Of a DNA stretch of 64,000 nt, positions 2,185 to 33,102 are shown one piece after another (within the stretch, counting starts at the first letter, position 1; each line of letters opens with the position of its first letter). Source of the stretch: Siphonodentalium dalli (lineage: Eukaryota > Mollusca > Scaphopoda > Gadilida > Siphonodentaliidae); contig CP136063.1 in NCBI GenBank assembly GCA_032622095.1, forward strand, positions 12,875,814-12,939,813, in the 5' to 3' direction. The position numbers were made by a program, and so were the translations under genes. The notes under the pieces were generated by a model, which saw only the letters and a program-made list of their open reading frames with translations, was not told the DNA's origin and did no database searches.

Positions 2185-2302
2185 AAATCCATTAACACAA
2201 AATAACTGTAGGTTATATAGCGCGGTATAAATCCATTAACACAGAATAACTGTAGGTTATTTCGCGCGGTATAAATCCATTAACACAGAATAACTGTAGG
2301 TT
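2185..2302. repeat. 44-bp minisatellite, left half split by retrotransposon insertion
   Basis: AAATCCATTAAC recurs at 2185, 2229 and 2273, giving a 44-bp period. Each unit contains AGCGCGGTAT and ATAACTGTAGGTT blocks. The third unit is cut at TAGGTT, where the LTR sequence starts. The same unit resumes at 15537 beyond the 3' LTR, so this was one array before insertion. Confidence 0.9.
2297..2302. repeat. Left target-site duplication (TAGGTT)
   Basis: TAGGTT directly precedes the LTR start TGTAGCGG and recurs at 15531-15536 after the 3' LTR. Beyond it the minisatellite sequence continues. The length (4-6 bp) suits a gypsy-type integrase; the exact length is uncertain because the LTR end is not a clear CA. 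Confidence 0.75.
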
Positions 2303-2321
2303 TGTAGCGGTTTTGGCCTCT
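2303..2321 (+). repeat. 19-bp remnant of the 5' LTR
   Basis: These 19 bases equal the first 19 bases of the 3' LTR (15301-15319). Sequence then jumps straight into the middle of gag coding sequence. The rest of the LTR, the primer-binding site and the start of gag are absent, so an internal deletion is the simplest reading. Confidence 0.85.
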
Positions 2322-3302
2322 GCGCCGGGGGCAGTCCAGCAGAGACAGGCAGTATTAAAGTTCTGCCAAGGACTACTGGACAAGGAAACAGGGCAACATG
2401 TTGCCACTTCCGCCCAGCCAACCATTAAAATGGCAGTAGAAAAGGCGCAGCTCTTCCAGCAGACCACGCAGGCGATATACGGGAAGAGACTGAAGAAAGA
2501 GGTAAAGGCCACATGGGTAGATTCGGATTCAGATTCGGATGGGGCCCAGATCAGCCAAATGTATAGGGATCGGGACAATAGGGGACGAGGGAATGGAAGA
2601 AGGGTTTCCGACTTGGAGGATGGAAGAAGGAACAATTCCAGGTTCGACCGGAATTGGAGGTCAGAGAGATCTGAGGGTTCCAACAATTCCAGGTATGACC
2701 GGAATCAGAGGTCGGAGAGCCCGAACAATTCCAGGTATGACCGGAATCAGAGGTCGGAGAGCCCGAACAATTCCAGGTATGACCGGAATCAGAGGTCGGA
2801 GAGCCCGAAGAACTCCGGGTATGACCGGAATTGGAGGTCGGAAAGTCCGAAGAACTCAGGGTATGACCAAAATTCCCGATATAACCGGTCCCGAACAACA
2901 GAAAATACAAAGCCGACAAATGAGTCCACTCCATGGGGCAGGAGTGGAACTACAAGAGATGGAGACACTGTCAAAAACAGGACGTCCGCCAACCAATCCT
3001 CGGATGTCAACTCAAGGGTGAGATCACTAGAGGGAGGAATGGGTGAGATGGCAGCGGACATTAAGAAGCTGATGGGCCTAGTAGAGGAGAAGTCAAGATA
3101 CCGGAATTATTCCAACTATGGGGACAGATCGAGAAGCCCTTCACCTAGGCGAAATGGGGAATTGATTTGCTTCAAATGTGAAAAACCAGGCCACTTTCGC
3201 CGTAACTGTCCCCAGAATGAACAACAGGACAAATTCCAGAAGAAAGTATCATTCAATAAGAACGAGGAGTTAAACGAGAGCGGGTCGTCCATCGAGGCCT
3301 AG
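2313..3302 (+). pseudogene. gag: Gag, N-terminally truncated, with CCHC nucleocapsid
   Basis: The ~329-codon frame has no proper ATG and begins inside capsid. The first ~55 residues (FCQGLLDKET through QQTTQAIYGKR) resemble the C-terminal capsid region of gypsy Gag. Residues ~110-190 are six imperfect 14-residue repeats of the type YDRNQRSESPNNSR, encoded by 42-bp DNA repeats. A zinc knuckle CFKCEKPGHFRRNC (CX2CX4HX4C, about residues 286-299) marks nucleocapsid. The frame ends at TAG 3300-3302, and pol lies in the -1 frame overlapping its last 43 bases. Matrix and most of capsid are gone with the 5' deletion, so this copy could not form particles on its own. Confidence 0.85.
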
Positions 3303-3439: not shown

Positions 3440-6400
3440 ATGTTCGATGTTGACTCTGACCAAACAGGTAGTGGGTTCAAAGAAGTTGTGAGCAAGCCCG
3501 GGAACGAGGTAGGTACATCAAACCGCCCTAGCCCAATGGTGAAGCTGGACGATGCATCGTTATCCGATGCTCAGCCGGCTTACCAGGAGGATAGGGACAT
3601 GAGTGGGCCTATCTTGATATCTGCCAATGAAAGAAATAAGTGGAGTAGACCAGAACCTAGGAAGGAACCGATAGGTGACGCAAGGGACGAAATACCCACG
3701 ACTGGTAGAGGGGTAGAGCAAGTCGAAGAAAACTCGTGGAAGGGTGACGACGAAATCCTATCGGAAGAGAAAACAGAATGGATCATGCCAGCTAACAGCA
3801 TGAGTGGACCCCCTAGTCAAAGAAAGGCTGAGATCAACGAGATGGGGAACTCAGAGGATCACGATGAAACGGATCTGGTAGATTCCCCAGAATTGGAAAT
3901 CGCTCAGCCTAGCGAACCATCTCCGGGTACGCTAAACAACGAAGAATTACCCGTTGAATTCACGATCCAACAAGTTAGGGGAACCATGCTGTACATCCCA
4001 GTAGAAATCAATGGGAGCAGATTGAATGCCGTTGTTGATAGTGGTGCAGAAGTAACCATCATATCGGATAAGGCTTTCAAGAGGCTGGAGAAACCACCTG
4101 ACATCCAGAAAAAGGCGAAGATGCATACGGCAGGCAGGAATTTATGCATGAATGCGTGGATCACCCAGCCGACCAACTTGCTAATAGGGGGAAAAACATA
4201 CAGCCACCCCTTATATGTTGCTCCCGTGGGCGATGATATGCTGTTGGGGTTGGATTTCATGAAGAAACATTCTGCCCGTATAAACCTAGACCGGGATATT
4301 ATCGAATTGGGGGGAATCACTATCAAAATGGAACGCTTAGGGGATGCTGCCCATGATGGACAAATCCAAGTACGAGTTTCCAAGGCGACTGTGGTACCTC
4401 CAGGTCAGGTGCGCTTGTGCCAGGGTGTCATGGCCGAAAATCTCAAACCATACATCCTGGAAGGAACGGAGCATCCTAGTATCATCATTCCGAGAACTGT
4501 TCACAGTGCCGGGAAAACCCCAGTGATCTGTCTCGTCAACACTTCAGAGAGATATATTAAATTCAAGCGAGGGCAAGTTATCGCCGCAGCATCTGAGGTG
4601 GAAGTATTGCGCTGTGACGGCGGCGCCAGTGTATCAGCAGTGCGAGTCGGAACAGAACCGTACAAAATCCCAGAACATCTGATGGATTTATACAATCGTT
4701 CAGCGGAAAATTTAGAGGCAAGCCAGCAGGACGCTCTGGCTCAACTCATAAGTGAGTACGCTGATGTTTTCGCAATAGACGAATATGATCTGGGGAACTT
4801 CACGGCAATGGAACACACTATTGATACCGGAGATGCTCTGCCCATTAAAATGAACCTCCGCCGAACCCCCGTGGCTTTTGTCAATGAAGAAAAACAGCTG
4901 TTGGACAAAATGCTGAGGGCCGGCGTGATTGAACCCAGCACTTCAGAATGGGCAGCTGCACCAGTACTGATCCGGAAACGGGACGGCAGTATTCGCTGGT
5001 GCCTCGACTACCGCGGTCTGAACTCGGTGACTAAAAAAGATGTCTGGCCCATTCCCCTGTTCTCAGAATGTGTGGATTTGTTAAGCCAGAAACAGTATTT
5101 TAGCCATCTGGATGGAAATTCTGCGTATTGGCAGATTCCCATTCGAGAGGAAGACCGCCACAAGACTGCTTTCCTGACAAAATACGGGACCTTCCATCAC
5201 GTCCAACTCGCTTTCGGTCTTTGTAACGCGCCAAGTTGCTATTCCAGGGCCATGAGCCTTGTGCTGCAGGGGTTAAACTGGAATATAGCATTGGCATTCT
5301 TAGACGACGTTCTGGTGATGGCGTCGGATTTTTCTAGCCACGTCATCAACCTTAAGAGGGTCCTGGAAAGATTCCGGAAATACCAACTCCGCCTAAAACC
5401 CAAAAAGTGTGGCTTGTTTCAAAGAAAAACAGAATTCTTGGGGCGAACGATAGACGGCCAGGGCATGACGATGACAGATGCCTCCTGCAAGGTCATCGAG
5501 GAGTGGCCGACCCCTCGAAATAGCAAGGACGTAGAAAGATTTTTGGGATTGGCAGGATACCACAGAATGTTCGTAAAGAACTTCTCGAAGCTCGCCGCCC
5601 CCCTACACCAGCTCACGGGGAAGAATCCAAAATTTGAATGGGGATACGAGCAAGAAGAGGCTTTCCTTGCCTTAAGAGAAGCCCTTATGACACCCCCGGT
5701 TCTTGCTCTACCGACAATAGAGGACCCATTCATACTGGATATGGATGCCTCGGACGGGGCGATAGGCGCAGAGCTAATCCAAGTCCAGGAAGGGGTGGAG
5801 AAAGTCATTGCGTATGGAAGCATATCTTTGAGTCGTGAGCAAAAGAACTATTGCACGACTCGTAAAGAATTACTGGCCGTGGTATTTTTCGCCAGGACGT
5901 TCCGGCACTATTTGCTGGGGCGACCTTTTGTGGTGCGAACTGACCACGCCAGCCTGACATGGCTCCTACGCTTCAAGCACCCCCAAGGCCAGATTGCACG
6001 ATGGCTGGAAGAACTGAGCCAATACCAAATGACAATTAAGCATCGCCCAGGAGCGCGTCATCAAAACGCAGACGCAATATCACGCCTAGTGGATGAAGAT
6101 CCTTGTCATTGTTTCAAGGCAGGGGTGATATTAGAAGATTTGCCCTGTGGTGGGTGCAAATACTGCCAAAAGGCAGAAGAGAAATGGGGAGCGTTCATTG
6201 ATTCGGTGGATGACGTGATCCCCTTGGCTCAGGTCCGGGCACAGTCCATAAACTTGGAGCACCAAGTTATGGACGTGACGTGTCCCATGCTGTGGCCATG
6301 GGATCCAGGGGGGTCAAGAATGAAAGAACACCGGACGGAAATAAGGGAACTTACCTTAATTCCCGACTGGGGTTCGGAACTAGGATCCCACCCTACCGTG

Positions 6401-8350
6401 ACCTGTGTTGCGAAAGTGACAAATGGGGAGGAAATCTCCCACCAAGTTGGGGTAGGTGTTGCGAAAGCGACAATAGGGGAAGTTCAAGGGAACCCCGAAT
6501 GCGGGTTAATAAAGGTAAGTGCGACCGACTTAGGAAAAGTCCATTTTATCGGTTCCATTGACATACCCCATATGGAAATCATTACGGTGAGTCAGGTCGT
6601 GGCAGACGCATGCCCGCTTCAACTGTATACGGCTGACGACCTGAAAGAAGCACAAGGCGAGGACGTGGATTTACACAAAATTATAGAGTGGGTACAACAG
6701 AAAAAGGATCCTGAAGAGGGAGAATTATTTAGATGCAGTCCTTGGGTGAAATATCTGTGGATAAATAAAGATCGCTTGAAGATGAGAGAGGGAGTACTCT
6801 GGATGATAAACAGACAAGAGCAGACAGTCAGAGTTCTTCCTTGGAATTTACAAGGTGAAGCGATAAGAGTGTGCCACGATTTACCAGCATCAGGGCACCA
6901 AGGGATGGAAAGAACGTTGGAAAGAGCTAAACAGAATTTCACGTGGTACCACATGTCGGAAAGCGTCCGCCAATATGTTTCGGGGTGTCAACAGTGCAAT
7001 GCAAGTAAGAAGTTGAACCGAAAAGCAAAGAACCCCATGATTATGTTTCATTCAGGTTACCCCATGGAGAGAGTTCATCTAGACTTTCTGGGACCGCTCC
7101 CAGCCACGGATCGTGGCAATGAGCATATCCTGGTGATGGTCGATCAATTCACTAAATGGGTGGAATGCGTACCGTTACCTAACCAGACTGCGGAAACGAC
7201 TGCCCAGGCAGCCGTGAACGAGTTTTTTACTAGGTTCGGGTACCCGTTCCAAATATTTACTGACCAGGGTGCCAATTTCCAAAGTAAATTGTTTACGGCA
7301 CTATGTGACCTGATGAAGATACATAAGACTAAAACTACAGCCTATAGACCATCGGCGAATGGGCAATGTGAGAATCACAACAAGACCTTGATGGCAGCTG
7401 TTAGATGCTTTGTGGAGAAATGCCCAAATCAATGGGACAAGTACGTTTCTCAGATAGCTGGGGCACTACGTTCATCTGTGAATCGATCCACAGGATTCAC
7501 GCCGAACAAATTAATGTTGGGGAGGGAAGTGAACCATCCAGCTGCATTGATGTTCGGAGATCCCAGCCCGGGAGAAGAAGAAGTCCACGAGTATCTAAAG
7601 GTCTTGAGTAAGAATATCCGTGAGGCTCACGATATAGCAAGAAAAACTCTGGTAACCACGCAGAAGAAAATGAAGCGAGATTATGACACCAAAATATTAC
7701 AGAAGGTATACCATCCTGGGGAATTAGTGTATATTTTGGACACAGCCGTCATAAAGGGAAAACCCAAGAAGCTTCAGCCGGTATGGAAAGGTCCGGGAAT
7801 TGTGGTTGACCAGATAACACCCTTCTTGTATAAAGTCAAGTTGCAAAAGGCCCAATTCGTCACTAATCACGACAAGATGAAGCTATGCCGGAACCGGGAA
7901 ATCCCACCTTGGCTGAAGACCTTTGTGGATAATGGGTTCAGCTTGGGGGAGGTTGTGGATAGTTATTCATCAGTCCTAAAGGGTAAAGGGAAAAAGGTGA
8001 GTCCGGACTGGCAGGGGCCGAAGATTATCACTCAGAAATTATCACCTTTTCTGTACGAGGCAAAAGACCAAACCATCGTTAGTCGTCTTCTGCCTGACCG
8101 ACTAAGAAAACACAAAGGTAAGATGCCGACATGGATAAAAGCCATCCGCAAGGAACTACCCATTTTGGGAACCAAGACGCGCTCCGAATATTGTTTCTGT
8201 AGAAAGCCGGACAAAGGAACATTTATGATTCAGTGTAACACCTGCGAAGAATGGTTTCATGGGCCTTGCGTGCGAATCTCCGAAGAAGACGCGAGACATC
8301 TGGATATTTACAGTTGTCGGAACTGCCTAAATCAAAGCGGAAAAACGTAG
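3440..8350 (+). CDS. pol: Pol polyprotein: protease, RT, RNase H, integrase, two GPY/F-like modules, PHD finger
   Basis: The uninterrupted frame is open from 3260 and is probably made as a Gag-Pol fusion by -1 frameshift; the first ATG is at 3440, and numbering here starts there. It copies element RNA into DNA and integrates it. Aspartic protease: DSGAE at D200. RT: motif A LDGNSAYWQI (D558) and FLDDVLV (D622, D623). RNase H: from about 767 (DMDASDGAIG) through RTDHASLTWL. Integrase: zinc-binding H1146, H1153, C1183, C1186; catalytic D1215, D1275, E1311 (35 residues between the last two). After the core come two related modules, around 1430-1490 (WKGPGIV then TPFLYKVK) and 1505-1575 (WQGPKII then SPFLYEAK). 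The C-terminus, about 1584-1632, is a C4HC3 PHD finger (YCFCRKP, QCNTC, EEWFHGPC, YSCRNC). All catalytic residues checked are present. Confidence 0.93.
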   Translation: MFDVDSDQTGSGFKEVVSKPGNEVGTSNRPSPMVKLDDASLSDAQPAYQEDRDMSGPILISANERNKWSRPEPRKEPIGDARDEIPTTGRGVEQVEENSWKGDDEILSEEKTEWIMPANSMSGPPSQRKAEINEMGNSEDHDETDLVDSPELEIAQPSEPSPGTLNNEELPVEFTIQQVRGTMLYIPVEINGSRLNAVVDSGAEVTIISDKAFKRLEKPPDIQKKAKMHTAGRNLCMNAWITQPTNLLIGGKTYSHPLYVAPVGDDMLLGLDFMKKHSARINLDRDIIELGGITIKMERLGDAAHDGQIQVRVSKATVVPPGQVRLCQGVMAENLKPYILEGTEHPSIIIPRTVHSAGKTPVICLVNTSERYIKFKRGQVIAAASEVEVLRCDGGASVSAVRVGTEPYKIPEHLMDLYNRSAENLEASQQDALAQLISEYADVFAIDEYDLGNFTAMEHTIDTGDALPIKMNLRRTPVAFVNEEKQLLDKMLRAGVIEPSTSEWAAAPVLIRKRDGSIRWCLDYRGLNSVTKKDVWPIPLFSECVDLLSQKQYFSHLDGNSAYWQIPIREEDRHKTAFLTKYGTFHHVQLAFGLCNAPSCYSRAMSLVLQGLNWNIALAFLDDVLVMASDFSSHVINLKRVLERFRKYQLRLKPKKCGLFQRKTEFLGRTIDGQGMTMTDASCKVIEEWPTPRNSKDVERFLGLAGYHRMFVKNFSKLAAPLHQLTGKNPKFEWGYEQEEAFLALREALMTPPVLALPTIEDPFILDMDASDGAIGAELIQVQEGVEKVIAYGSISLSREQKNYCTTRKELLAVVFFARTFRHYLLGRPFVVRTDHASLTWLLRFKHPQGQIARWLEELSQYQMTIKHRPGARHQNADAISRLVDEDPCHCFKAGVILEDLPCGGCKYCQKAEEKWGAFIDSVDDVIPLAQVRAQSINLEHQVMDVTCPMLWPWDPGGSRMKEHRTEIRELTLIPDWGSELGSHPTVTCVAKVTNGEEISHQVGVGVAKATIGEVQGNPECGLIKVSATDLGKVHFIGSIDIPHMEIITVSQVVADACPLQLYTADDLKEAQGEDVDLHKIIEWVQQKKDPEEGELFRCSPWVKYLWINKDRLKMREGVLWMINRQEQTVRVLPWNLQGEAIRVCHDLPASGHQGMERTLERAKQNFTWYHMSESVRQYVSGCQQCNASKKLNRKAKNPMIMFHSGYPMERVHLDFLGPLPATDRGNEHILVMVDQFTKWVECVPLPNQTAETTAQAAVNEFFTRFGYPFQIFTDQGANFQSKLFTALCDLMKIHKTKTTAYRPSANGQCENHNKTLMAAVRCFVEKCPNQWDKYVSQIAGALRSSVNRSTGFTPNKLMLGREVNHPAALMFGDPSPGEEEVHEYLKVLSKNIREAHDIARKTLVTTQKKMKRDYDTKILQKVYHPGELVYILDTAVIKGKPKKLQPVWKGPGIVVDQITPFLYKVKLQKAQFVTNHDKMKLCRNREIPPWLKTFVDNGFSLGEVVDSYSSVLKGKGKKVSPDWQGPKIITQKLSPFLYEAKDQTIVSRLLPDRLRKHKGKMPTWIKAIRKELPILGTKTRSEYCFCRKPDKGTFMIQCNTCEEWFHGPCVRISEEDARHLDIYSCRNCLNQSGKT

Positions 8351-9749: not shown

Positions 9750-9772
9750 TACCTTGATCTCCATCTCCCTAG
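9750..9772 (+). promoter_or_regulatory. Possible splice acceptor upstream of ORF3
   Basis: A pyrimidine-rich run, GATCTCCATCTCCCTAG, ends in AG at 9771-9772, 29 bp before the ORF3 ATG. ORF3 lies 1.45 kb after pol and would need a subgenomic message, as retroviral env does. A consensus donor, AAG|GTAAGT, is present inside pol (GT at 6515). The usual leader donor would have been lost with the 5' deletion. Purely inferential. Confidence 0.3.
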
Positions 9773-9801: not shown

Positions 9802-12800
9802 ATGGACGTGGATAAGGAAAATATCAGCCCTAGAAGGGATTGGCGCCCAAAATTGTCTATCACGGAGAGGGTCCAGAAGGCATGTCGCAACCACTCGTTG
9901 ATGGATGTCACCACCTTGTTCAATGAGATTGGGTTTGATGATAACCTGCACGCCCCTCAGATTGAGGATCTGACCCTGATGCAATATCGGCTCGCGGTGT
10001 ACCAGAAAAACGCTCGATGGATCACGCGATGTAGACAAGATGCTAGACTATTTTTGGATGATACCTGGATAGATAACAAGCTTCCAAGTCTCGACGGAAA
10101 ACAGAAAATTTCTCGCCAGCGCCCGGCTACAAGACGCCCTACTGAAACAGAAACCATAGATACCAGAGATCACACCACCGTCCTTTATGAAATCTCTTCC
10201 TCTCGAAGAAACGACACCGAGGTTAGAAATTCCTCATATTCTTCCACGTCTTCCTCAGTAAAGCCACCGCCTTCCGCAGCATCATCTTCACAGTCATCCG
10301 TACTGCTTAACCAGGAGCAGCCTCCTTCTTCCAGACCTTCCGGTCAGAGACCTGCCATACCTTCTGCGTCGATGTCTTCTTCCTCGTTAGATCAACCGTT
10401 GCGACCGTACCGCGTACTGCGACCACGCTCCGAAGCCGAAAGGAACTGGTCTCACTCACATCAAAGACAAAGTCATTCCTCTCATAGAGAATCTCGACAA
10501 CCGCAGGGTGCATCTCGTGCAGATAGACGCCATTCACCACGTATTCCCCGAAACCATGGACGGCGGGACTCTAGGGCAACCATTCCCTATCGCCATTCTC
10601 CAGTAAGGAAATCTTCAATGCGCCACTCACCATATCCGAGATCTCAGGGGTCAGGGAGGGCACAGCCTTATGAACCACCCCTTCGAGAACGTCAACGTTC
10701 GGTCGCACCCTTTCGATCACATCAGGGTAACATGTCATTGCGGAGATCAAGGTCTTCTCCTTCTCGTAGGAATCCATCCAGTCTCGACTCGCGAGATATT
10801 GTGATTCCTTCAGCTCAGTCTTTTCGTAGGAATCCGCCCCGTCTCGACTCCCGAGATATTGGGATTCCTTCATCTCAGTCTTCTTCCCAGAAGAATCAGT
10901 CTCGTCTCGACTCCCGAGACATTGGGATTCCTCCGTTTCAGTCTTCCCGGATAGACCCGTCTCGTCTTGACTCCCAGGATAGAGGGGTCCATCCATCACC
11001 TTTTATCTTGCGGAATCCTCCCCGTCTCGAATCTCGAGGCTCTGAGGCTTCACCATTATATTCTTCTATTCTGAAGAATCCTCCCCGTCTCGAATCTCGA
11101 GGCTCTGAGGTTGCACCATTAAATAATTCTATTATGAGGAATTCGCCCAATCTCGATTCTCGAGATTCTGAGGGCCCATCATCATATTCTTCTGTTCTGG
11201 GGAACCTACCCCGTCTCGAATCCCGAGATTCTGAGGTTTCCAGTTTTAACGTCATGCCATTGACTGGGGGAGCTACGACAGAGATCAATACCTCTGTTAA
11301 ATCTACAGATTCTCGGGTAATTCTTCCCATGGAGTTACTGACTGAGGAAGTCAATTCTCTTCCTTCTTTGGAGACCTCTCTTGTTGAGCCAGGTGAGAAG
11401 CAGGTTAGCAGGAAAGTTCCACCTCGTAACGACACCAAGTGTCCTCTGTGCGGTCAACCGTCTAAGAAGATGAAACGGCATTGCATGGTCCATCATCTCC
11501 CTCAAACAGTCTGGGAATTTAGGACAGCAGATCAACCCCAACCGGAAGATTGGGAATTTCTTTTGCTCTTCCTTGCTAAACGTCTTAACTGTAGTCTCGC
11601 GGAGTTGATTGGAAAGTGTAACAACAGCTCCGTAAGGATGCCGTCTTCGAGCATCACACCCGATTGTTTGACCATGATGGCAGAATTTCAGTCTTTTCTT
11701 CACACACAGTATGATTGGCCAGTGGTGGGCAAGTTTTCTCTCCATCCCATAAACTCTGTGGCCGTGCTTCTGCACTGGAGACCTCTTTGCAATTTACTAC
11801 TCCAAATTCCCCTGGAGGGACAGAAGAGTTTTCGTAATCTTTGCCCAGGTCGCCTTTGCAATTTTGTAACCAGATCTGGGAAAGCTCGACTGAACCAGCA
11901 GCATCTGACCGCTGAATTGAACCTGACCAGTGTAAAGAAGTCCGATGGAGTACCCATATCCACAAAGAAGAAACCGGTTTATCCGAATCTCCACATCCAG
12001 ATATCAGGCGAGTCTTTTCCACCGCCCCATAAACTCCAGATAGAATGCGGACCTCCCCGGATTGTCAGCTGTTCCCCTCCAACTGCAGATCCTGCGATTT
12101 CAACGCTCCCCCCACCTTCTGAGGTTAAGATCAGCCACTCACCAGGTTCTGACAAGACTGTTCCACCTGTCCCGCAACCACCAATCTACACTCCAGATGC
12201 TGTTTCTACAGTTCTGGATCCAGGTGTACTTACTGTGGATGCTGTACGGACAGTTCCGATTCTCTCGGAATCTCCCACTGGGTCAATGGACACGACCCTG
12301 GTTCTGGGAAGTGACCCTCCCCTTACACCGGAGGTCAGCGACTCTGCCAACGTGGATAGTATTCTTGGGAGCCCATCAGGCCAGTGGCCTCCCCTCAGTG
12401 TTCCGCAGAATAGGATCAGCCGAATCACTCTTCCTATTCTTCCCCCACCTCGTGATTTTGGGCTAGCTAGAATGGCTGTAGATTCACACTTCCATTTAGA
12501 TCGCTTGCATGATTGTCTTAGAGGCTATCCGAAATTTGACATAGACGACATGCTCCAATATCGACCTTCGCCGTTCCCGACGACTCCTATCAACCTTATA
12601 GGTGGAGTGATGATCTTCTGTGATCCCTCCACTTACCCGGTTGACATCCGTGTTGATACCCCGTTTAAGACGGCCGTTGGTCTCCATCCAAAGAAAGCCG
12701 GTCTTTATTCATCTTACCATAAACGTCTCGATGAATTGTTTGCACATCCCGGTACGGTCGCAATTGGCGAAATTGGACTGGACCGGACTATGGCACCCAG

Positions 12801-13302
12801 CTACTGGGAGCAACAAGATTCTGTCTTTAGGGATATCGTCAAGTCTGCAGTACTATATCAGAAGCCCATAGTTCTTCATTTACGAGGTCTTGCGAATTTC
12901 CCTGCGGATGTCTATGCCCGAGGACACAAGATTGTCTCTGACGTCTGTCCTCCTAACCAACTAATTCATCTTCACTGCTTCAATGCTGGCGTGGAGGAGT
13001 TCCAACAGTGGAGCAACTCCTTTCCCCATTGCTACTTTGGTTTTACGGCTGCTGTGACATTCTTCAACGTGTCTCAGAAAAGGGCGTTGCAAGCCATACC
13101 TTCTTCCCGTCTTTTGTTGGAAACTGACTCTCCCTACTTTGGTCATCCTTGGGGAGCCGAAATCAGTAGCCCCGCCTATATTGGAAATGTTGCACGAGTC
13201 GTATCTGACATCCGGAACGAAAGTCTTCAGGACATCTTACAAGCAACGATTCTGAATACTAGCCGGTTTTACGGAACACCTGTTCCGGGGAACTTCCTTT
13301 AA
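9802..13302 (+). CDS. ORF3: retrotransposon-borne TatD-family nuclease with long Ser/Arg-rich N-terminus
   Basis: Intact 1166-residue protein from ATG 9802. Residues 1-110 form an unrecognised, probably folded segment. Residues ~130-330 are Ser/Arg/Pro-rich, and ~320-480 hold about eight ~20-residue repeats of NPPRLDSRDIGIPSSQSS type. Residues 547-565 fit a C2H2-like finger (CPLC then H560 and H564 or H565). Residues ~566-690 are an unrecognised globular-looking region, followed by a proline-rich linker. Residues 891-1166 are a complete TatD hydrolase domain with HxH (H896, H898), E990 in AIGEIGLD, H1026, H1058 in LHCF, and D1109 in LETDSPY. TatD proteins are metal-dependent 3'-5' exonucleases or DNases; the long-tailed metazoan relative is TATDN2. 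The gene is co-oriented with pol, inside the LTR boundaries. All metal ligands are present, so activity is plausible, but the role in the element is unknown. Confidence 0.9.
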   Translation: MDVDKENISPRRDWRPKLSITERVQKACRNHSLMDVTTLFNEIGFDDNLHAPQIEDLTLMQYRLAVYQKNARWITRCRQDARLFLDDTWIDNKLPSLDGKQKISRQRPATRRPTETETIDTRDHTTVLYEISSSRRNDTEVRNSSYSSTSSSVKPPPSAASSSQSSVLLNQEQPPSSRPSGQRPAIPSASMSSSSLDQPLRPYRVLRPRSEAERNWSHSHQRQSHSSHRESRQPQGASRADRRHSPRIPRNHGRRDSRATIPYRHSPVRKSSMRHSPYPRSQGSGRAQPYEPPLRERQRSVAPFRSHQGNMSLRRSRSSPSRRNPSSLDSRDIVIPSAQSFRRNPPRLDSRDIGIPSSQSSSQKNQSRLDSRDIGIPPFQSSRIDPSRLDSQDRGVHPSPFILRNPPRLESRGSEASPLYSSILKNPPRLESRGSEVAPLNNSIMRNSPNLDSRDSEGPSSYSSVLGNLPRLESRDSEVSSFNVMPLTGGATTEINTSVKSTDSRVILPMELLTEEVNSLPSLETSLVEPGEKQVSRKVPPRNDTKCPLCGQPSKKMKRHCMVHHLPQTVWEFRTADQPQPEDWEFLLLFLAKRLNCSLAELIGKCNNSSVRMPSSSITPDCLTMMAEFQSFLHTQYDWPVVGKFSLHPINSVAVLLHWRPLCNLLLQIPLEGQKSFRNLCPGRLCNFVTRSGKARLNQQHLTAELNLTSVKKSDGVPISTKKKPVYPNLHIQISGESFPPPHKLQIECGPPRIVSCSPPTADPAISTLPPPSEVKISHSPGSDKTVPPVPQPPIYTPDAVSTVLDPGVLTVDAVRTVPILSESPTGSMDTTLVLGSDPPLTPEVSDSANVDSILGSPSGQWPPLSVPQNRISRITLPILPPPRDFGLARMAVDSHFHLDRLHDCLRGYPKFDIDDMLQYRPSPFPTTPINLIGGVMIFCDPSTYPVDIRVDTPFKTAVGLHPKKAGLYSSYHKRLDELFAHPGTVAIGEIGLDRTMAPSYWEQQDSVFRDIVKSAVLYQKPIVLHLRGLANFPADVYARGHKIVSDVCPPNQLIHLHCFNAGVEEFQQWSNSFPHCYFGFTAAVTFFNVSQKRALQAIPSSRLLLETDSPYFGHPWGAEISSPAYIGNVARVVSDIRNESLQDILQATILNTSRFYGTPVPGNFL

Positions 13303-15286: not shown

Positions 15287-15300
15287 AAAGTGAGGGGGAA
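15287..15300 (+). promoter_or_regulatory. Polypurine tract (plus-strand primer)
   Basis: AAAGTGAGGGGGAA is a 14-base all-purine run that abuts the LTR start TGTAGCGG. It is the expected primer for plus-strand DNA synthesis in LTR elements and fixes the left edge of the 3' LTR at 15301. Confidence 0.92.
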
Positions 15301-15530
15301 TGTAGCGGTTTTGGCCTCTTGTTCCACCGAGATCCTCCGGAAACCCACGGAGATGTATCTACACCACTCGGAACGACTCACGTGACCCGACTCTTCCCGA
15401 AGGTGACGTCATCCGGGAATTCACGACACTTCAACGACAGCCTTCAAACCGACAACATCGCTCCGCGCTCAAGACTTCTATAATAGGTAATTTCATTAGA
15501 TAACATCACTTATAAACCCTAATCATGTTA
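15301..15530 (+). repeat. 3' LTR (about 230 bp)
   Basis: It begins TGTAGCGG after the polypurine tract, and its first 19 bases match the 5' remnant. It ends near 15530, just before the TAGGTT duplication. A TATAATA-like box lies at about 15478-15484. The end is not a clean CA, so the right edge is good to within a few bases. Confidence 0.85.
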
Positions 15531-15536
15531 TAGGTT
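15531..15536. repeat. Right target-site duplication (TAGGTT)
   Basis: Matches 2297-2302 and is followed by resumed minisatellite sequence. Confidence 0.75.
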
Positions 15537-19819: not shown

Positions 19820-21420
19820 AAACGTGCTCGCCCACTCGAGTGTGAAGTGTGTGAAAAGCCCACACATAATGCAGTCCACTGGAAGTGACCTGATATATAC
19901 GGGAATCCACACCGGCGACAGTCCGTATCAATGCGATATATGTGAGAAATCATTCACCCGGACGAGTAGCCTAATGAGACGTAAGAAAGTCCACACCACC
20001 AATAGTCCGTATCAGTGCGATACATGTATATATGAGAACTCATTAGCCCAGAGTGGTGATATGATAAAATATAAAAGAACACACACCGGCGATCACCAGT
20101 ATCGGTGCGATATATGCGAGAAATCATTCACACATGCGAGTACCATAAGGGCGCATAAGAGAGTCCACACCGGTGATCGTCCATATCAGTGTGATGTGTG
20201 TGATAAATCATTCATTCAGAAAAGTGATTGGATGAAACACAAAAGAACTCACGTCCGTGATCGTCCATACTAGTGCGATTTGTGTCAGAAATCATGAGAA
20301 GTCGTCTGATAACACATAAGAGAATCCACACAGATGAGCGTCCGTTTCCATGTGATATGTGCGATAAATCATTCGCCCAGGCTGGTAATCTAATGGCACA
20401 CAAGAGAGTCCACACAGGAGAGCGTCTGTATCAGTACGGTATATGTGAGAGATCATTCACCCAGAACGGCAGCCTGATCGCACATAAGAGAATACACACC
20501 GGAGAGCGTCCGTATCAGTGCGATCTGTGTGAGAGATCATTCACACAGAACGGCAGCCTGGTCGCACATAAGAGGATACCCACCGGAGAGCGTCCGTATC
20601 AGTGCGTTATATGTGGGAAATAATTTGCCAAGAACAGTATCCAAACAGCGCATAAGAGAATCCACACCGGCGATTGCCCGTATCAGTGGGCATATGTGAG
20701 AAATCATTCGCCGAGAGAAGTGATCTGATAAACCATAAGATAATCCACACCGGCGATCGTCCGTATCAGTGCGATATATGTGAGAACACTTTCGCCCAGA
20801 ACAGTGATATAATAACACATAAGATAATCCACACCGGAGAGCGTCCGTATCAATGAGAAACCATTCGCCAACAAAAGTGGTCTCATAAACCATATGTGAG
20901 AACCCATTCGCACAGAAAGGTCATCTAATGGCGCACAAGAGAGCCCAAACAGGCGAGCGACCATGTCAGTGTGATGTATGTGGTAAACCATTCGCCAACA
21001 CAAGTGGTCTGATAGAACATAACAGAATACACACCGGCGATCGTCCGTATCAGTGCGGTCTGTGTGAGAGATCATTCACACATAATTTTAACCTAACGAC
21101 ACATAATCGAGTCCACACATGAGAGCGTCCATATCAGTGTGAATCATTTGACCGGAAAGTTGACTAACGCAACATAAGATAATCCACGTTGGCGATCCAT
21201 GAATCCATATCGGTGCGATCTGTGTGATAAATCATATACTGCTTCATCTCAAGCCAGCATTCATAAGACAACACACGCTGGTGATCGTCCATATCAGTGC
21301 GATGTGTGTGAGAAATAGTTTGCACAGAGAGGTGATCTGATGAAACATAAGTTAATCCAGACTGGCGATCCATAGACCCATACCAGTGTGAAATGTGTGA
21401 GAAATCATTCGAAATAAAAT
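19820..21420 (+). pseudogene. C2H2 zinc-finger gene, broken by stops and frameshifts
   Basis: About a dozen to sixteen C2H2 fingers with GERPYQCD and GDRPYQCD linkers can be read in plus-strand pieces (19824-20273, 20273-20623, 20674-20856, 20928-21122 and shorter bits to 21400). Stops and indels separate them: a TAG ends the first block after HVRDRPY, and a TAA follows VICGK. Several fingers have lost ligands (PHC to YG, H to P). The linker style (YQCDICEKSF) differs from the 836-1984 gene (YHCDICGKSF), so it is a separate paralogue. Confidence 0.85.
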
Positions 21421-24055: not shown

Positions 24056-24372
24056 TATATATCACAGCAGAAGTTTCCTTAGAATTAATGGATGGAGATG
24101 GAATGCACCTTAATATTTTGAGTCGGACATAGATTACCTATTTACCTTAGCTGAATGCAATAAATGTAAGCTATGTAGAAAAAGAAATTATTGAATGAAG
24201 TGTAGTGAATATGATGCGTCACTTTAATATTTGAGTCGGACATAGATTACCTTAGCTAAAAGCAATGAAAGTGTCAATGACACTGTAGCTAAACTTGGAA
24301 AGTGAAAAATTTCATGTATTACAGTCAATGGAGTGATTAGGAATGTGGAAAGTTGAAAGGCCCAGTAAAGGA

Positions 24373-27300
24373 AATAGTAAAATCCAAGATGGCTGCTGGT
24401 GGCCATAATTTTGGTCGAATAACCCAAAAATGACTCGTTCCCATCTACATGTCATTGTAAACATTCATGACAAATTTCATGAAGATCCGACCAAATCTAC
24501 GACCTGTAGCCTGCGCCAAATGATGTAGTCGTGCAAAGAGTAAAATCCAAGATGGCTGCTGGCGGACAAGTTTTTTGGCCGAACAACCCCAAAATGACTC
24601 GTTCCCATCTACATGTCAATATTAACATCCATGCAAAATTTCATGATGATCAGACAAGCAATACGACCTGTAGCCCGCACCAATGGATTGAATTTTGAAA
24701 TCATAGATGGCCGCCGCCATCCATGTTTTTTTGCCGAATGACCCCAAAATGACTCGTTCCCATCTACATGTCAATGTCAACATTCATGACAAATTTCATA
24801 AAGATCAGACTTAAGGTACGACCTGTAGCCCGCGCCAAAGGATTTAGTCATGCAAAGAGTAAAATCCAAATTGGCTGCTGACAGCAATGTTTTGGCCAAA
24901 AGGACTCGTTCCCATCTACATGTCGTTGTTAACATCCATGACAAATTTCATGAAGATCTGACCAAAACCACGACCTGTAGCCCGCGCCAAAGGATTTAGT
25001 CATGCAAAGAGTAAAATCCAAGATGGCTGCTGGCGGTCACGTTTTTTGGCCGAACGACCCCAGAATGACCCGTTCCCATCTACATGTACATGTCAATATT
25101 TACATCCATGCAAAATTTCATGATGATCAGACAAGCAGTACGACATGTAGCCCGCGCCAATGGATTGAATTTTGAAATCCAAGATGGCCACTGGCAGCCA
25201 TGTTTTTATGCCGAATGACCCCAAAACTACTCGTTCCCATCTACATGTCATTATTAACATCCATAACAAATTTCATGAAGATCTGACTAAAGCTACGACC
25301 TGTAGCCCGCGCCAAAGGATTTAGTCATGCACAGAGTAAAATCCCAGAGGGCTGCTGGCGTCCATTTTTTGGGCCGAATGACCCCAAAACGACTTGTTCC
25401 CATCTACATGTCATTTTTAACATCCATGACAAATTTCATGAAGATCTGACGAAAGCCACGACCTGTAGCCCACGCCAAACGATTTAGTCATGCAAGGAAT
25501 AAAATCCAAGATGGCTGCTGGCGGCCATGTTTTTTTGCCAAATGACCCCAAGATGACTTGTTCCCATCTATATGTCAATGTCAACATTCGTGACCAATTT
25601 CATAAAGATCAGACCAAACGTACGACCTGTAGCCCGCGCCAAAGGATTTAGTCATGAAAAGAGTAAAATCCAAGATGGGTACTGGCGGCCATGTTTTTTG
25701 GCCGAATTACCCCAAAACGACTCGTTACCATCAACATGTCATTGTTAACATCCATGACAAATTTCATGAAGATCTGACCAAAGCCACGACCTGTAGCCCG
25801 CGCCAAATGATTTAGTCATGCAAAGAGTAAAATCCAAGATGGCTGCTGACGGCCATAACAACCTCAGAATGACTCGTTCCAATCTACATGTCAATATTAA
25901 CATCCATGCAAAATTGCATGATGATCAGACAAGAAGTACGACCTGTAGCCCATGCCAATGGATTGAATTTTGAAATCCAAGATGGCCGCTGGCAGCCATG
26001 TTTTTTTGGCCGAATGACCCCAAAATAACTCGTTCCCATCTACATGTCAATGTCAACATTCGTGACAAATTTCATAAAGATCAGACCAAAGGTACGACAT
26101 GTAGCCCGCGCCAAATGATTTGTCATGCAAAGAGTAAAATCCAAGATGGCTGCTGGCGGCCATGTTTTTTGGTCAAACTATTCCAAAATGACTCGTTCAC
26201 ATCTACATGTCAATGTCCATGACAAATAGCATAATGATCTGACCAAATTTACAACCTAGAGCCTATGTTGAAGGATTTAGTCAAGCAAAGAGTAAAATCC
26301 AAGATGTATTTTGGCCGAATGACCACAAAATGGCTCGTTCCCATCTACATGTCATTGTTAACATCAATGACAAATTTCATAAAGAACCGACCAAAGCTAC
26401 GACCTGTAGCCCACGCCAAAGGATTTAGTCATGCAAAGAGTAAAATCCAAGATGGCTGCTGGCGGCCATGTTTTTGGCCGAACGACCCCAAAATGGCTCT
26501 TTCCCATCTGCCTGTCATTATTAACATCCATCACAAATTTCATGATAATCAGACGAACAGTATGACCTGTAGACCACTCCAATCGATTTAATTGTGAAAT
26601 CCAAGATGGCTGCCAGCGGCCATGTTTTTTTGCCGAATGACCCCAAAATGACTCGTTCCCATCTACATGTCAATGTCAACATTCATGACAAATTTCATAA
26701 TGATCTGACCAAAGGTACGACCTGTAGCCTGTGCCAAAGGATTTAGTCAGGCAAAGAGTGAAATCCAAGATGGCTGCTGGTGGCCCTGATTTTTGGCTGA
26801 ATGACCCCAAAAGGATTCTTTCCAATATACATGTCATTGTTAACATCCATGGCAAATTTCATGAAGATCCTATCAAAGCTACGACCTGTAGCCCGCGCCA
26901 AAGGATTTAGTCATGCAAAGAGTAAAATCAAAGATGGCTGCTGGCGGCCATTGTTTTTGGTGGAACGACCCCAAAATGACTCGTTAACATCCATGACATA
27001 TTTCATGATGATCAGACAAACAGTACGACATGTACACCGCGCCAATCGATTTAATTTTGAAATCCAAGCCATGACAAATATCATAGTGATCTGACCAAAT
27101 GTACAACCTAGAGCCTGTGCTGAAGGATTTAGTCAAGCAAAGAGTAAAATCCAAGATGTATTTTGGCCGAATGACCACAAAACAGCTCGTTCCCATCTAC
27201 ATGTCATTGTTAACACCAATCACAAATTTCATGAAGATCCGACCAAAGCTACGACATGTAGCCCGCGCCAGAGGATTTAGTCATGCAAAGAGTAAAATCC

Positions 27301-30300
27301 AAGATGGCTGCTGGCGGCCATGTTTTTTAGCCGCACGACCCAAAAATGGCTCGTTCCCATCTGCCTGTCATTATTAACATCCATGACAAATTTCATGATA
27401 ATCAGACGAACAGTATGACCTGTAGACCACGCCAATCGATTTAATTTTGAAATCCAAGATGGCTGCCAGCGGCCATGTTTTTTTGCCGAATAGCCCCAAA
27501 AGGACTCGTTCCCATCGACATGTCAATGTCCATGACAAATATCATAATGATCTGACCAAATTTACAACCTAGAGCCTATGTTGAAGGATTTAGTCAAGCA
27601 AAGAGTAAAATCCAAGATGTATTTTGGCCGAATGACCACAAAATGGCTCGTTCCCATCTACATGTCATTGTTAACATCAATGACAAATTTCATAAAAAAC
27701 CGACCAAAGCTACGACCTGTAGCCCACGCCAAAGGATTTAGTCATGCAAAGAGTAAAATCCAAGATGGCTGCTGGCGGCCTTATTTTTTGGTCAAACTAC
27801 CCCAAAATGACTCGTTCACATCTACATGTCAATGTCCATGACAACTCTCATAATGATCTGACCAAATTTACAACCTAGAGCCTATGTTGAAGGATTTAGT
27901 CAAGCAAAGAGTAAAATCCAAGATGTATTTTGGCCGAATGACCACACAATGGCTCGTTCCCATCTACATGTCATTGTTAACATCAATGACAAATTTCATA
28001 AAGAACCGACCAAAGCTACGACCTGTAGCCCACGCCAAAGGATTTAGTCATGCAAAGAGTAAAATCCAAGATGGCTGCTGGCGACCATGTTTTTTGGCCG
28101 AACGACCCCAAAATGGCTCTTTCCCATCTGCCTGTCATTATTAACATCCATCACAAATTTCATGATAATCAGACGAACAGTATGACCTGTAGACCACTCC
28201 AATCGATTTAATTTTGAAATCTAAGATGGCTGCCAGTGGCCATGTTTTTTTGCCGAATGACCCCATAATGACTCGTTCCCATCTACATGTCAATGTCAAC
28301 ATTCATGACAAATTTCATAATGATCTGACCAAAGGTACGACCTGTAGCCTGTGCCAAAGGATTTAGTCAGGCAAAGAGTGAAATCCAAGATGGCTGCTGG
28401 CGGCCATTTTTTTTGGTGGAACGACCCCAAAATGACTTGTTAACATACATGACATATTTCATGATGATCAGACAAACAGTACGACATGTACACCGCGCCA
28501 ATCGATTTAATTTTGAAATACAAGCCATGACAAATATCATAGTGATCTGACCAAATGTACAACCTAGAGCCTGTGCTGAAGGATTTAGTCAAGCAAAGAG
28601 TAAAATCCAAGATGTATTTTGGCCGAATGACCACAAAACAGCTCGTTCCCATCTACATGTCATTGTTAACACCAATCACAAATTTCATGAAGATCCGACC
28701 AAAGCTACGACCTGTAGCCCGCGCCAGAGGATTTAGTCATGCAAAGAGTTAAATCCAAGATGGCTGCTGGCGGCCATGTTTTTTGGCCGCACGACCCAAA
28801 AATGGCTCGTTCCCATCTGCCTGTCATTATTAACATCCATCACAAATTTCATGATAATCAGACGAACAGTATGACCTGTAGACCACTCCAATCGATTTAA
28901 TTTTGAAATCTAAGATGGCTGCCAGTGGCCATGTTTTTTTGCCGAATGACCCCATAATGACTCGTTCCCATCTACATGTCAATGTCAACATTCATGACAA
29001 ATTTCATAATGATCTGACCAAAGGTACGACCTGTAGCCTATGCCAAAGGATTTAGTCAGGCAAAGAGTGAAATCCAAGATGGCTGCTGGCGGCCATTTTT
29101 TTTGGTGGAACGACCCCAAAATGACTCGTTAACATCCATGACATATTTCATGATGATCAGACAAACAGTACGACATGTACACCGCGCCAATCGATTTAAT
29201 TTTGAAATCCAAGCCATGACAAATATCATAGTGATCTGACCAAATGTACAACCTAGAGCCTGTGCTGAAGGATTTATTCAAGCAAAGAGTAAAATCCAAG
29301 ATGTATTTTGGCCGAATGACCACAAAACAGCTCGTTCCCATCTACATGTCATTGTTAACACCAATCACAAATTTCATGAAGATCCGACCAAAGCTACGAC
29401 ATGTAGCCCGCGCCAGAGGATTTAGTCATGCAAAGAGTAAAATCCAAGATGGCTGCTGGCGGCCATGTTTTTTAGCCGCACGACCCAAAAATGGCTCGTT
29501 CCCATCTGCCTGTCATTATTAACATCCATGACAAATTTCATGATAATCAGACGAACAGTATGACCTGTAGACCACGCCAATCGATTTAATTTTGAAATCC
29601 AAGATGGCTGCCAGCGGCCATGTTTTTTTGCCGAATAGCCCCAAAAGGACTCGTTCCCATCGACATGTCAATGTCCATGACAAATATCATAATGATCTGA
29701 CCAAATTTACAACCTAGAGCCTATGTTGAAGGATTTAGTCAAGCAAAGAGTAAAATCCAAGATGTATTTTGGCCGAATGACCACAAAATGGCTCGTTCCC
29801 ATCTACATGTCATTGTTAACATCAATGACAAATTTCATAAAAAACCGACCAAAGCTACGACCTGTAGCCCACGCCAAAGGATTTAGTCATGCAAAGAGTA
29901 AAATCCAAGATGGCTGCTGGCGGCCTTATTTTTTGGTCAAACTACCCCAAAATGACTCGTTCACATCTACATGTCAATGTCCATGACAACTCTCATAATG
30001 ATCTGACCAAATTTACAACCTAGAGCCTATGTTGAAGGATTTAGTCAAGCAAAGAGTAAAATCCAAGATGTATTTTGGCCGAATGACCACACAATGGCTC
30101 GTTCCCATCTACATGTCATTGTTAACATCAATGACAAATTTCATAAAGAACCGACCAAAGCTACGACCTGTAGCCCACGCCAAAGGATTTAGTCATGCAA
30201 AGAGTAAAATCCAAGATGGCTGCTGGCGACCATGTTTTTTGGCCGAACGACCCCAAAATGGCTCTTTCCCATCTGCCTGTCATTATTAACATCCATCACA

Positions 30301-32335
30301 AATTTCATGATAATCAGACGAACAGTATGACCTGTAGACCACTCCAATCGATTTAATTTTGAAATCTAAGATGGCTGCCAGTGGCCATGTTTTTTTGCCG
30401 AATGACCCCATAATGACTCGTTCCCATCTACATGTCAATGTCAACATTCATGACAAATTTCATAATGATCTGACCAAAGGTACGACCTGTAGCCTGTGCC
30501 AAAGGATTTAGTCAGGCAAAGAGTGAAATCCAAGATGGCTGCTGGCGGCCATTTTTTTTGGTGGAACGACCCATAAAATGACTTGTTAACATACATGACA
30601 TATTTCATGATGATCAGACAAACAGTACGACATGTACACCGCGCCAATCGATTTAATTTTGAAATACAAGCCATGACAAATATCATAGTGATCTGACCAA
30701 ATGTACAACCTAGAGCCTGTGCTGAAGGATTTAGTCAAGCAAAGAGTAAAATCCAAGATGTATTTTGGCCGAATGACCACAAAACAGCTCGTTCCCATCT
30801 ACATGTCATTGTTAACACCAATCACAAATTTCATGAAGATCCGACCAAAGCTACGACCTGTAGCCCGCGCCAGAGGATTTAGTCATGCAAAGAGTTAAAT
30901 CCAAGATGGCTGCTGGCGGCCATGTTTTTTGGCCGCACGACCCAAAAATGGCTCGTTCCCATCTGCCTGTCATTATTAACATCCATCACAAATTTCATGA
31001 TAATCAGACGAACAGTATGACCTGTAGACCACTCCAATCGATTTAATTTTGAAATCTAAGATGGCTGCCAGTGGCCATGTTTTTTTGCCGAATGACCCCA
31101 TAATGACTCGTTCCCATCTACATGTCAATGTCAACATTCATGACAAATTTCATAATGATCTGACCAAAGGTACGACCTGTAGCCTATGCCAAAGGATTTA
31201 GTCAGGCAAAGAGTGAAATCCAAGATGGCTGCTGGCGGCCATTTTTTTTGGTGGAACGACCCCAAAATGACTCGTTAACATCCATGACATATTTCATGAT
31301 GATCAGACAAACAGTACGACATGTACACCGCGCCAATCGATTTAATTTTGAAATACAAGCCATGACAAATATCATAGTGATCTGACCAAATGTACAACCT
31401 AGAGCCTGTGCTGAAGGATTTAGTCAAGCAAAGAGTAAAATCCAAGATGTATTTTGGCCGAATGACCACAAAACAGCTCGTTCCCATCTACATGTCATTG
31501 TTAACACCAATCACAAATTTCATGAAGATCCGACCAAAGCTACGACCTGTAGCCCGCGCCAGAGGATTTAGTCATGCAAAGAGTTAAATCCAAGATGGCT
31601 GCTGGCGGCCATGTTTTTTGGCCGCACGACCCAAAAATGGCTCGTTCCCATCTGCCTGTCATTATTAACATCCATGACAAATTTCATGATAATCAGACGA
31701 ACTGTATGACCTGTAGACCACGCCAATCGATTTAATTTTGAAATCCAAGATGGCTGCCAGCGGCCAAGTTTTTTCGCCGAATGACTCGTTCCCATCTACA
31801 TGTCAATGTCAACATTCATGACAAATTTCACAATGATCTGACCAAAGGTACGACCTGTAGCATGTGCCAAAGGAATTAGTCATGCAAAGAGTGAAATCCA
31901 AGATGGCTGCTGGCGGCCATGATTTTTGGCTGAATGACCCCAAAAGGATTCTTTCCAATCTACATATCATTGTTAACATCAATTACAAATTTAATGAAGA
32001 TCCTACCAAAGCTACGACCTGTAGCCCGTGCCAAAGGATTTAGTCATGCAAAGAGTAAAATCAAAGATGGCTGCTGGCGGAAATGTTTTTTGGTGGAACG
32101 ACCCCAAAATGACTCGTTAACATCCATGACAAATTTCATGATGATCAAACAAACAGTACGACATGTAGACCGCGCCAATCAATTTAATTTTAAATCCAAG
32201 ATGGCTGTCAGCCGCCATGTTTTTTGGCCAATGACCCCAAAATGACTTGTTCCCATCTACATGTCAATGTCAACATTCATGACAAATTTTATAAAGATCA
32301 GACCAAAGGTACGACCTGTAGCCCGCGCCAAAAGA
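24373..32335. repeat. Satellite array of ~158-bp monomers, about 50 units
   Basis: Monomers recur every ~150-165 bp with blocks CCAAGATGGC, GGCGGCCATG, ACTCGTTCCCATCTACATGT, AAATTTCATGA, TACGACCTGTAGCCCGCG and GGATTTAGTCATGCAAAGAG. Two monomer types alternate irregularly, one with GGATTTAGTCATGCAAAGAG and one with GATTTAATTTTGAAATCC. Short open frames on both strands repeat with the monomers and are by-products. A shorter array of the same monomer is at 58686-59318. Confidence 0.92.
26930..31790. repeat. Higher-order repeat, ~2145-bp unit, about 2.3 copies
   Basis: Matching points recur 2145-2146 bp apart (27099 and 29244; 27578 and 29723; 28555 and 30701; 29244 and 31390) with near-identical sequence, far closer than monomer to monomer. 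Within each unit a 689-bp sub-repeat is also visible (28555 to 29244). This is the pattern of recent unequal exchange inside the array. Confidence 0.88.
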
Positions 32336-32604
32336 AATTGTTGACGGACACACACACGCACACATCGATGTCGTTGAGCTAATAATGAATATATGATGTG
32401 TCGCTTTTGGTGAATTGGCAATGACAGCAGTATGGAAACGGTCACTGCGGTGGAGTTACATGCCGTTAGGTTATGATACACGGTCTACAGCCCTACAGGT
32501 ATTAGCGGGTTGTCACACCAGACGTTGAAGAAAATTATGATATATGTCCATGAGGATCTTTTTTAAAGATTGGGTAAGTGTTGGCGCTGGGTATAGCTGT
32601 TAAA

Positions 32605-33102
32605 GCCACGTGCGGCCTTAATTGTCGAAAAAATATTCATATTTGTTCCAACCACCGTAAACAGAAAAACATTAAAACGCATACAGTTCCAACCATATAT
32701 ACCATGACCATAGCGTAAATAGCATGTTACCATAAAGCCCTAAGTACTATATTTTACCTAAGCAAGAGCCTGATTGTGTTACAGAAGACAGCACAATTCT
32801 ACTGGCTAATCACACACAAATGACATAAACGCTCTTTATTAGTTCCATATCAGGTATTCACCAACAAAGAACGCTCTTTATGTTTACCATCATAATATAA
32901 ACAAACACCAGAAAATTAACTTTTTATGCTTTTGTTTACATAACAATAGTCAAACAAATGACCATAACATGCTGTTTATGCGATATTTCTTATTTGTATA
33001 CGGACAAAGTCTATCTACATTTTGATGTTCTTTCTGTTAGTGGCGGTTTTTGACGGGTGGAGATATTTTCACAGGATACCCACCGCCAAGGCCAACCGTG
33101 TC
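32605..33102. mobile_element. MITE-like insertion present in duplication copy A only
   Basis: Copy B lacks this ~498 bp at 59587, where sequence passes straight through TTAAA. In copy A TTAAA occurs on both sides (32600-32604 and 33104-33108). The ends (GCCACGTGCGGCCTT and AAGGCCAACCGTGTC) are imperfect inverted repeats. An inverted relative lies at 45236-45734. The TTAA-like target suggests a piggyBac-type element, but the ends do not show the usual CCC start. Confidence 0.6.

Follow-up and report, generated by a model that had tools for sequence, protein, structure and literature searches.

A TatD-family gene carried by a Ty3/Gypsy retrotransposon lineage in the scaphopod Siphonodentalium dalli

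Does a nuclease-like gene found inside a retrotransposon belong to the element or to its host, and what might it do there? We addressed this question for a 64,000-nucleotide stretch of the Siphonodentalium dalli genome (the window), in which a long open reading frame, ORF3, encodes a protein with a TatD-family domain and lies between the pol gene and the 3' long terminal repeat (LTR) of a Ty3/Gypsy element. Ownership by the element, not the host, is supported: ORF3 moves with the element at many dispersed sites, in the order gag-pol-ORF3-LTR. We consider it probable, at roughly three in four, that ORF3 is the third gene of an old Ty3/Gypsy lineage whose pol ends in a PHD finger, and that it is expressed from a spliced mRNA and acts as a nuclease on replication intermediates.

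ORF3 and the element that carries it

The window copy is a 13.2 kb Ty3/Gypsy element flanked on both sides by the 4-bp sequence GGTT. Its features, in window positions, are:

2299..2302, no strand: target duplication GGTT, 5' copy, at a 44-bp tandem repeat
2303..2321, + strand: 5' LTR remnant, an exact match to the first 19 bp of the 3' LTR
2322..3302, + strand: 3' part of gag with a CCHC zinc knuckle; open frame of 329 amino acids (aa)
3440..8350, + strand: pol, 1636 aa, with aspartic protease, reverse transcriptase (RT), RNase H, integrase (H2C2 and core) and a C-terminal PHD finger
9759..9772, + strand: splice-acceptor-like sequence CTCCATCTCCCTAG; its end lies 29 bases upstream of the ORF3 ATG
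9802..13302, + strand: ORF3, 1166 aa plus stop, an open frame with its ATG at 9802
15292..15300, + strand: polypurine tract GAGGGGGAA; eight copies inspected also have it ahead of the 3' LTR
15301..15532, + strand: 3' LTR of 232 bp, TGTAGCGG...GTTATA
15533..15536, no strand: target duplication GGTT, 3' copy, matching the 5' copy

The domains of pol follow the Ty3/Gypsy order protease-RT-RNase H-integrase, and related copies show paired LTRs, a target duplication and a polypurine tract. The original prediction, made from the window's letters, had placed an intact ORF3 between pol and the polypurine tract/3' LTR in the same orientation, and the open frame and the coordinates confirm this. ORF3 starts 1451 bp after the pol stop, a gap without a long ORF on the + strand, and lies upstream of the polypurine tract and LTR by ~2 kb. 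The window copy itself is not intact but broken at its 5' side, where most of the 5' LTR and the leader are missing; pol and ORF3 are open. Gag measures 891-913 aa in six other copies, compared to 329 codons here, and thus about two thirds of it have been lost. Likewise absent is TTGGCGACGAGG, which comes after the 5' LTR in seven of seven copies; it is a candidate primer-binding site, perhaps for a serine tRNA. The 44-bp tandem repeat adjoins both ends of the element.

We searched the genome (2.23 Gb in 9 contigs) for further copies. ORF3 gave at least 72 matches (pieces, not copies; 40 of 2127 candidates scored) on eight of the nine contigs. The ten best are open frames of 1167-1207 codons, and a second subfamily in the same genome shows 62-63% identity in the TatD part. 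In all ten copies with flanks read, pol sequence precedes ORF3 at 94-100% identity (one copy has a truncated pol and another a partial duplication), and ORF3 is followed by an LTR match, which in one case covers just 120 bp. A full-size 5' LTR was found in 7 of 8 copies given extra 5' flank. Exact 4-bp target duplications bound five of the seven copies with both LTRs, in addition to the window copy. The two LTRs are identical in five of these seven; one other pair differs by 2 mismatches and one by 1 mismatch and 6 gap columns. Some insertions of the TatD-carrying element are recent.

When LTRs were paired by position (40 of 62 LTR candidates scored), 15 same-strand pairs emerged, spaced 11.9-20.1 kb (mostly 17.4-20.1 kb, one 11.9 kb), and 10 LTRs, including that of the window, were unpaired. 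ORF3 is enclosed in the same orientation by 14 of the 15 pairs, 12 of which also contain a scored pol, in a test that drew on 23 of the 72 ORF3 matches and 21 pol matches. The fifteenth pair (contig C8:188678630-188696552) has minus-strand LTRs 17.9 kb apart with pol and ORF3 inside in plus orientation; either its interior is inverted or the insertion is nested and rearranged. A 21.9 kb stretch elsewhere (C7:210353202-210375085) holds two LTRs along with two pol copies in inverted order, which would reflect an inverted duplication or else a fold in the assembly.

These copies bear on the alternative that a host TatD gene became caught, on a single occasion, between unrelated repeats. Restriction to a single locus, introns and host synteny independent of the LTRs, any of which would have spoken for trapping, were looked for and did not hold. 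Instead, and in line with the claim that ORF3 belongs to the element, the frame recurs uninterrupted and LTR-bounded at many loci, in a fixed order with several pol lineages. We therefore reject capture at one locus, to which we assign almost no probability.

Domains of ORF3 and selection on them

ORF3 is divided as follows, with a second linker separating the finger/helical part from TatD:

9850..10086, + strand: predicted five-helix N-terminal domain (residues 17-95), from structure prediction
10147..11421, + strand: Ser/Arg/Pro-rich linker (residues 116-540), of low confidence (disordered), with 60-63-bp tandem repeats
11422..11850, + strand: CCHH-like finger plus helical domain (residues 541-683), with the motif NSxAVLLHWR
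12457..13299, + strand: TatD domain of Group II (HxH) type (residues 886-1166), from Pfam, fold and ligand alignment

The Pfam profile TatD_DNase matched ORF3 with 132 bits (E = 3e-38; cut-off 27) over residues 957-1158, corresponding to profile positions 57-253 of 253. Because this match starts at residue 957, the HxH part was assigned by homologue alignment and fold. The six metal ligands that had been named at the outset (H896, H898, E990, H1026, H1058 and D1109) are indeed present, and all six are kept in 121 of 132 aligned sequences, the window copy included. Note that 5 of 137 sequences, in which no HxH-like motif was detected, had been removed beforehand, so that the counts for H896 and H898 are conditional on this step. 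The modelled domain resembles solved TatD structures, including human TATDN1 and TATDN3, with Foldseek matches to 1yix and 2y1h. ORF3 thus combines the HxH motif and remaining metal ligands of Group II TatDs with the TatD fold, and by analogy with these enzymes would be a metal-dependent nuclease. Pfam returned no match for the finger/helical part, and the fold search no significant match for this part or for the N-terminal domain.

In gypsy elements that have an env gene, env sits after pol. ORF3 might accordingly be an envelope-like gene with a chance TatD-like fold. By hydropathy, ORF3 contains no transmembrane-like stretch (highest 19-residue value 1.38), and a value of 1.6 is reached by 3 of 35 ORF3 homologues. 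Envelope identity was rejected on this measure; together with the retained ligands and the selection on TatD described below, it leaves the envelope explanation very improbable.

To analyze selection, we used the nine copies with an ORF3 of at least 1100 codons among 16 loci examined, the window included. The ratio of non-synonymous to synonymous substitution rates (dN/dS) was 0.34 for ORF3 (9 copies), 0.28 for pol (6 copies) and 0.51 for gag (6 copies). Within ORF3 it was 0.028 for the N-terminal domain, 0.71 for the linker, 0.33 for the finger/helical domain, 0.52 for the second linker and 0.071 for TatD. The ratio well below 1 that had been anticipated between copies was thus obtained for ORF3 as a whole and, most clearly with respect to the predicted enzyme, for TatD (0.07). 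Counts of individual changes, for which domain bounds differ slightly from those in the dN/dS computation, gave 20 synonymous and 5 non-synonymous changes in TatD (P = 4e-8), 8 and 1 in the N-terminal region (residues 1-115; P = 1e-4), and 31 and 65 in the linker (P = 0.28), which served as internal control (TatD versus linker, Fisher P = 2e-5). These results show that the TatD and N-terminal domains of ORF3 are under purifying selection; the linker looks near neutral.

Three points temper this interpretation. The choice of open ORF3 copies excludes stops, though not amino-acid changes. The linker ratio may be inflated by misalignment, since repeat number varies. Finally, the finger/helical domain taken alone is not significantly constrained (6 synonymous to 8 non-synonymous changes, P = 0.12).

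The same data bear on the possibility that the ligands are kept for folding or binding only, with ORF3 serving as a structural nucleic-acid-binding protein of the particle. The N-terminal domain is constrained at least as much as TatD, as would be expected of such a protein. The retention of all six ligands in most homologues, however, is hard to explain without catalysis, and we regard a purely structural role as unlikely.

Age, origin and spread of the pol-ORF3 pairing

To determine how far the pairing extends beyond close copies, the genome was searched with the integrase/PHD part of pol. This yielded 131 matches, 82 of them in the integrase (51-100% identity; two represent one locus, and one element holds two), and 49 short PHD pieces were omitted. 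A TatD search of the genome, with 150 of 529 candidates scored, gave 150 hits that all exceed the family cut-off, 48 of which sit just downstream of a scored pol. In a first association test, combining the 150 TatD hits, 13 of the 72 ORF3 matches and the 82 integrase matches, 53 of the 82 were followed on their own strand by a TatD or ORF3 hit, at a distance of 1.5-7.4 kb. Within 12 kb, no hit lay upstream or in opposite orientation for any of them. Ordered by pol identity, these were 19 of 23 (at least 86%), 5 of 8 (64-72%), 6 of 7 (56-57%) and 23 of 44 (51-54%). The total rose to 59 of 82, again spread over all four identity bands, after a further search, with 66 places of which 13 were new to the test, had been added. 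As the pairing is common to pol lineages that are only about half identical, it is not a recent capture.

The origin of the domain was examined in a tree of the window ORF3 with 38 of 136 homologues, 30 of 80 bacterial loci and three other TatDs of this genome. The 39 ORF3-type TatDs formed one clade (local support 0.99). Its sister was the three other TatDs, which are single open frames of ~300 codons, and both together were nested among the 30 bacterial TatDs. The tree, whose eukaryotic TatDs are the ORF3-type and own-genome sequences, supports a single origin of the ORF3-type domain. The original prediction had a TATDN2-like host gene as the donor; host TATDN2 is a candidate, with an HxH motif that ORF3 also has but that occurs in TATDN3 as well. 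TatDs of ~300 codons lie at C6:103057155, C1:56547136 and C5:96621661, and at C3:80495244 and C7:145794264, where the scores are equal, as copies would have; they may be host genes or other mobile genes. A single-protein search of viral and prokaryote contigs found no ORF3 relatives. An alignment-based search returned 7 viral-contig loci and bacterial loci (best 80 of at least 523) at 23-33% identity, which we took as ordinary TatDs and which served in part as outgroup.

Relatives occur in other species. The ORF3 search found 35 full-length protein relatives, and the TatD profile 938 (best 120 listed). Among the matches listed are bivalves (Mytilus, Saccostrea, Ostrea, Pinctada, Pecten, Argopecten, Mizuhopecten, Mercenaria and Dreissena), the gastropod Nucella, two sea urchins and the hemichordate Ptychodera. 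Several relatives are assigned to metagenome-assembled genomes named Sedimenticola or Candidatus Thiodiazotropha; as these are symbionts of bivalves, the sequences are probably host DNA. The finger/helical profile matched 111 of 136 homologues, a set in which fragments are frequent. Among the 74 homologues that had not gone into the profile and have 150 residues or more ahead of TatD, it matched 72, compared to none of 120 pol proteins. For the N-terminal domain the count was 41 of 136, and a basic, Ser/Arg-rich linker is common among the homologues without being universal. Four listed mollusc and sea-urchin homologues bear the database name TATDN2, and scallop and clam proteins so named (P0253, P0256) carry part of the ORF3 finger domain.

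Gene models that join pol to ORF3 were found in two other molluscs. The predicted protein P0006 of Mytilus edulis, the one pol match among the 35 full-length relatives, contains a protease and a stretch leading into the integrase zinc domain of this pol lineage (30% and 34% identity) joined to ORF3. In Nucella P0121, a pol with a terminal PHD finger continues into the ORF3 N-terminal domain, and residues 897-985 align at 98% identity with the beginning of P0033, a separate ORF3 protein of Nucella. TatD itself was present in none of the 120 listed pol proteins tested. The PHD finger at the pol C-terminus is present in most of the 120 listed pol homologues, and could read histone marks and steer integration. 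A weak Pfam PNMA match (23 bits, below the cut-off of 25) was seen in the gag of the Ostrea edulis gag-pol protein P0040.

Several observations limit the case for ORF3 as the third gene of this lineage. Many copies are decayed, with 7 of the 16 loci examined lacking an ORF3 of 1100 codons, and target duplications mismatch in two of the seven copies with both LTRs (C2a, ATAA/ATAC; C5a). Twenty-three of the 82 integrase matches had no TatD hit; with 150 of 529 TatD candidates scored this says little, and members of the pol lineage that lack ORF3 are neither shown nor excluded by the count. In favour of a pol-TatD link in other species, contigs with pol hits and contigs with TatD hits gave six exact size matches (0.41 expected; at most 3 in 5000 jittered trials), but a size match is an indirect sign of the same contig, and one of the six sizes fits two pol proteins. 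The correlation between pol and TatD identity (r 0.81-0.86) is driven largely by one close pair. Finally, of the 23 unused homologues whose TatD is preceded by 450 residues or more, just 11 showed the N-terminal domain. Proteins with the finger/helical and TatD parts were seen in bivalves, a gastropod, a sea urchin and a hemichordate, in the last two as protein architecture alone.

Elsewhere in the window, a Pfam-confirmed C2H2 zinc-finger array with 84-bp repeats lies near the element (836-1984, - strand). A second such array, identified from translation and repeats only, spans ~19824-21400 (+ strand), also with 84-bp repeats. A repeat array with steps of ~164 bp and higher-order blocks occupies 24317-32191. 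Segments 32221-36569 and 59199-64000, ~27.4 kb apart, are 90-97% alike in pieces, reflecting either a duplication or a second repeat family.

Possible role of ORF3 and comparison with known systems

The presence of ORF3 at many insertions and the maintenance of its enzyme part by selection suggest that the elements use it when copying themselves. ORF3 is a separate frame with its own ATG and in-frame stops directly upstream of it, and the acceptor-like CTCCATCTCCCTAG was also present in 3 of 3 other copies inspected. These features suggest that it is translated from a spliced mRNA. The helical, finger and Ser/Arg-rich parts may then bring the protein to the element's own nucleoprotein, where it would act as a two-metal nuclease on replication intermediates. 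Human TATDN1 and TATDN3 act as 3'-exonucleases, chiefly on single strands, and as apurinic/apyrimidinic (AP) endonucleases on duplex DNA (PMC10085689). By analogy, the most likely task would be to clear or repair flawed ends or abasic sites in the cDNA, through 3'-exonuclease or AP-endonuclease activity.

Next in line would be cutting of RNA in RNA:DNA hybrids or R-loops, which might help RNase H, the removal of primers or the element's transcription. TATDN2 is described as an RNase that resolves R-loops (as cited in PMC12709183); it shares the HxH motif with ORF3, and its name is borne by the four listed homologues mentioned above. On the other hand, pol already contains an RNase H domain, and we regard this activity as possible rather than probable.

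Accessory genes of retroelements often answer host defence. ORF3 could likewise repair cDNA damage left by deaminases and uracil removal, or attack host nucleic acid, in which case a cell lacking such defences could do without it. TatD enzymes are known to act on abasic sites (PMC10085689). However, there is no sign of an arms race: the linker ratio is indistinguishable from neutral without exceeding 1, and the catalytic domain has been conserved. Counter-defence is thus a tentative alternative to general processing of replication intermediates, our preferred reading.

A more far-reaching version, which we offer as speculative, is that an ancient Ty3/Gypsy branch in molluscs, and probably in other bilaterians, carries its own DNA-repair-type nuclease with which abasic damage to its cDNA is mended or polished away, in part as a response to host deaminases, and that many mollusc genes named TATDN2 or TatD are this element gene and do not belong to the host. 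A figure of the giant squid Hox cluster in PMC6962438 shows a 'TATDN2' beside a pogo transposable element gene and ZMYM1; this gene may be of the same element kind. If our reading is correct, a conserved, selected nuclease outside pol represents a new kind of LTR-retrotransposon accessory gene and offers a handle on what limits element cDNA in invertebrates. It also bears on how TATDN2 and TatD genes are named.

A search of open-licence papers found no report of a TatD-carrying retroelement, an absence that is weak given this scope. The 'DNase' mentioned in PMC8556966 is a reagent.

How does this element compare with known systems? Plant LTR retrotransposons reportedly carry additional ORFs (title of a reference in PMC8220671), likewise extra genes on LTR elements; we know of no TatD nuclease among them. 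The retroviral dUTPase is likewise encoded by the element and keeps uracil-type damage out of cDNA. It is a different enzyme, and its parallel to the role proposed for ORF3 is functional only. In retroviruses and errantiviruses the third ORF is env, located between pol and the 3' LTR with a splice acceptor before it. ORF3 is like env in its position and its acceptor-like site, and differs in being a conserved, predicted enzyme without a transmembrane-like stretch.

Group II TatDs comprise TATDN3, TATDN2 and E. coli YcfH and YjjV, with the HxH class common to TATDN2 and TATDN3 (PMC10085689). ORF3 shares with them the HxH motif, the other ligands and the TatD fold, but adds the N-terminal helical domain, the Ser/Arg-rich linker and the finger/helical part, and is encoded by a mobile element. 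With Ty3/Gypsy elements (Metaviridae) the lineage shares the gag-pol order, the protease-RT-RNase H-integrase arrangement, short LTRs, the polypurine tract and the 4-bp duplication. It differs from them in its size, mostly 17.4-20.1 kb, in the PHD finger that ends pol, and in a third ORF that encodes a predicted TatD nuclease instead of env.

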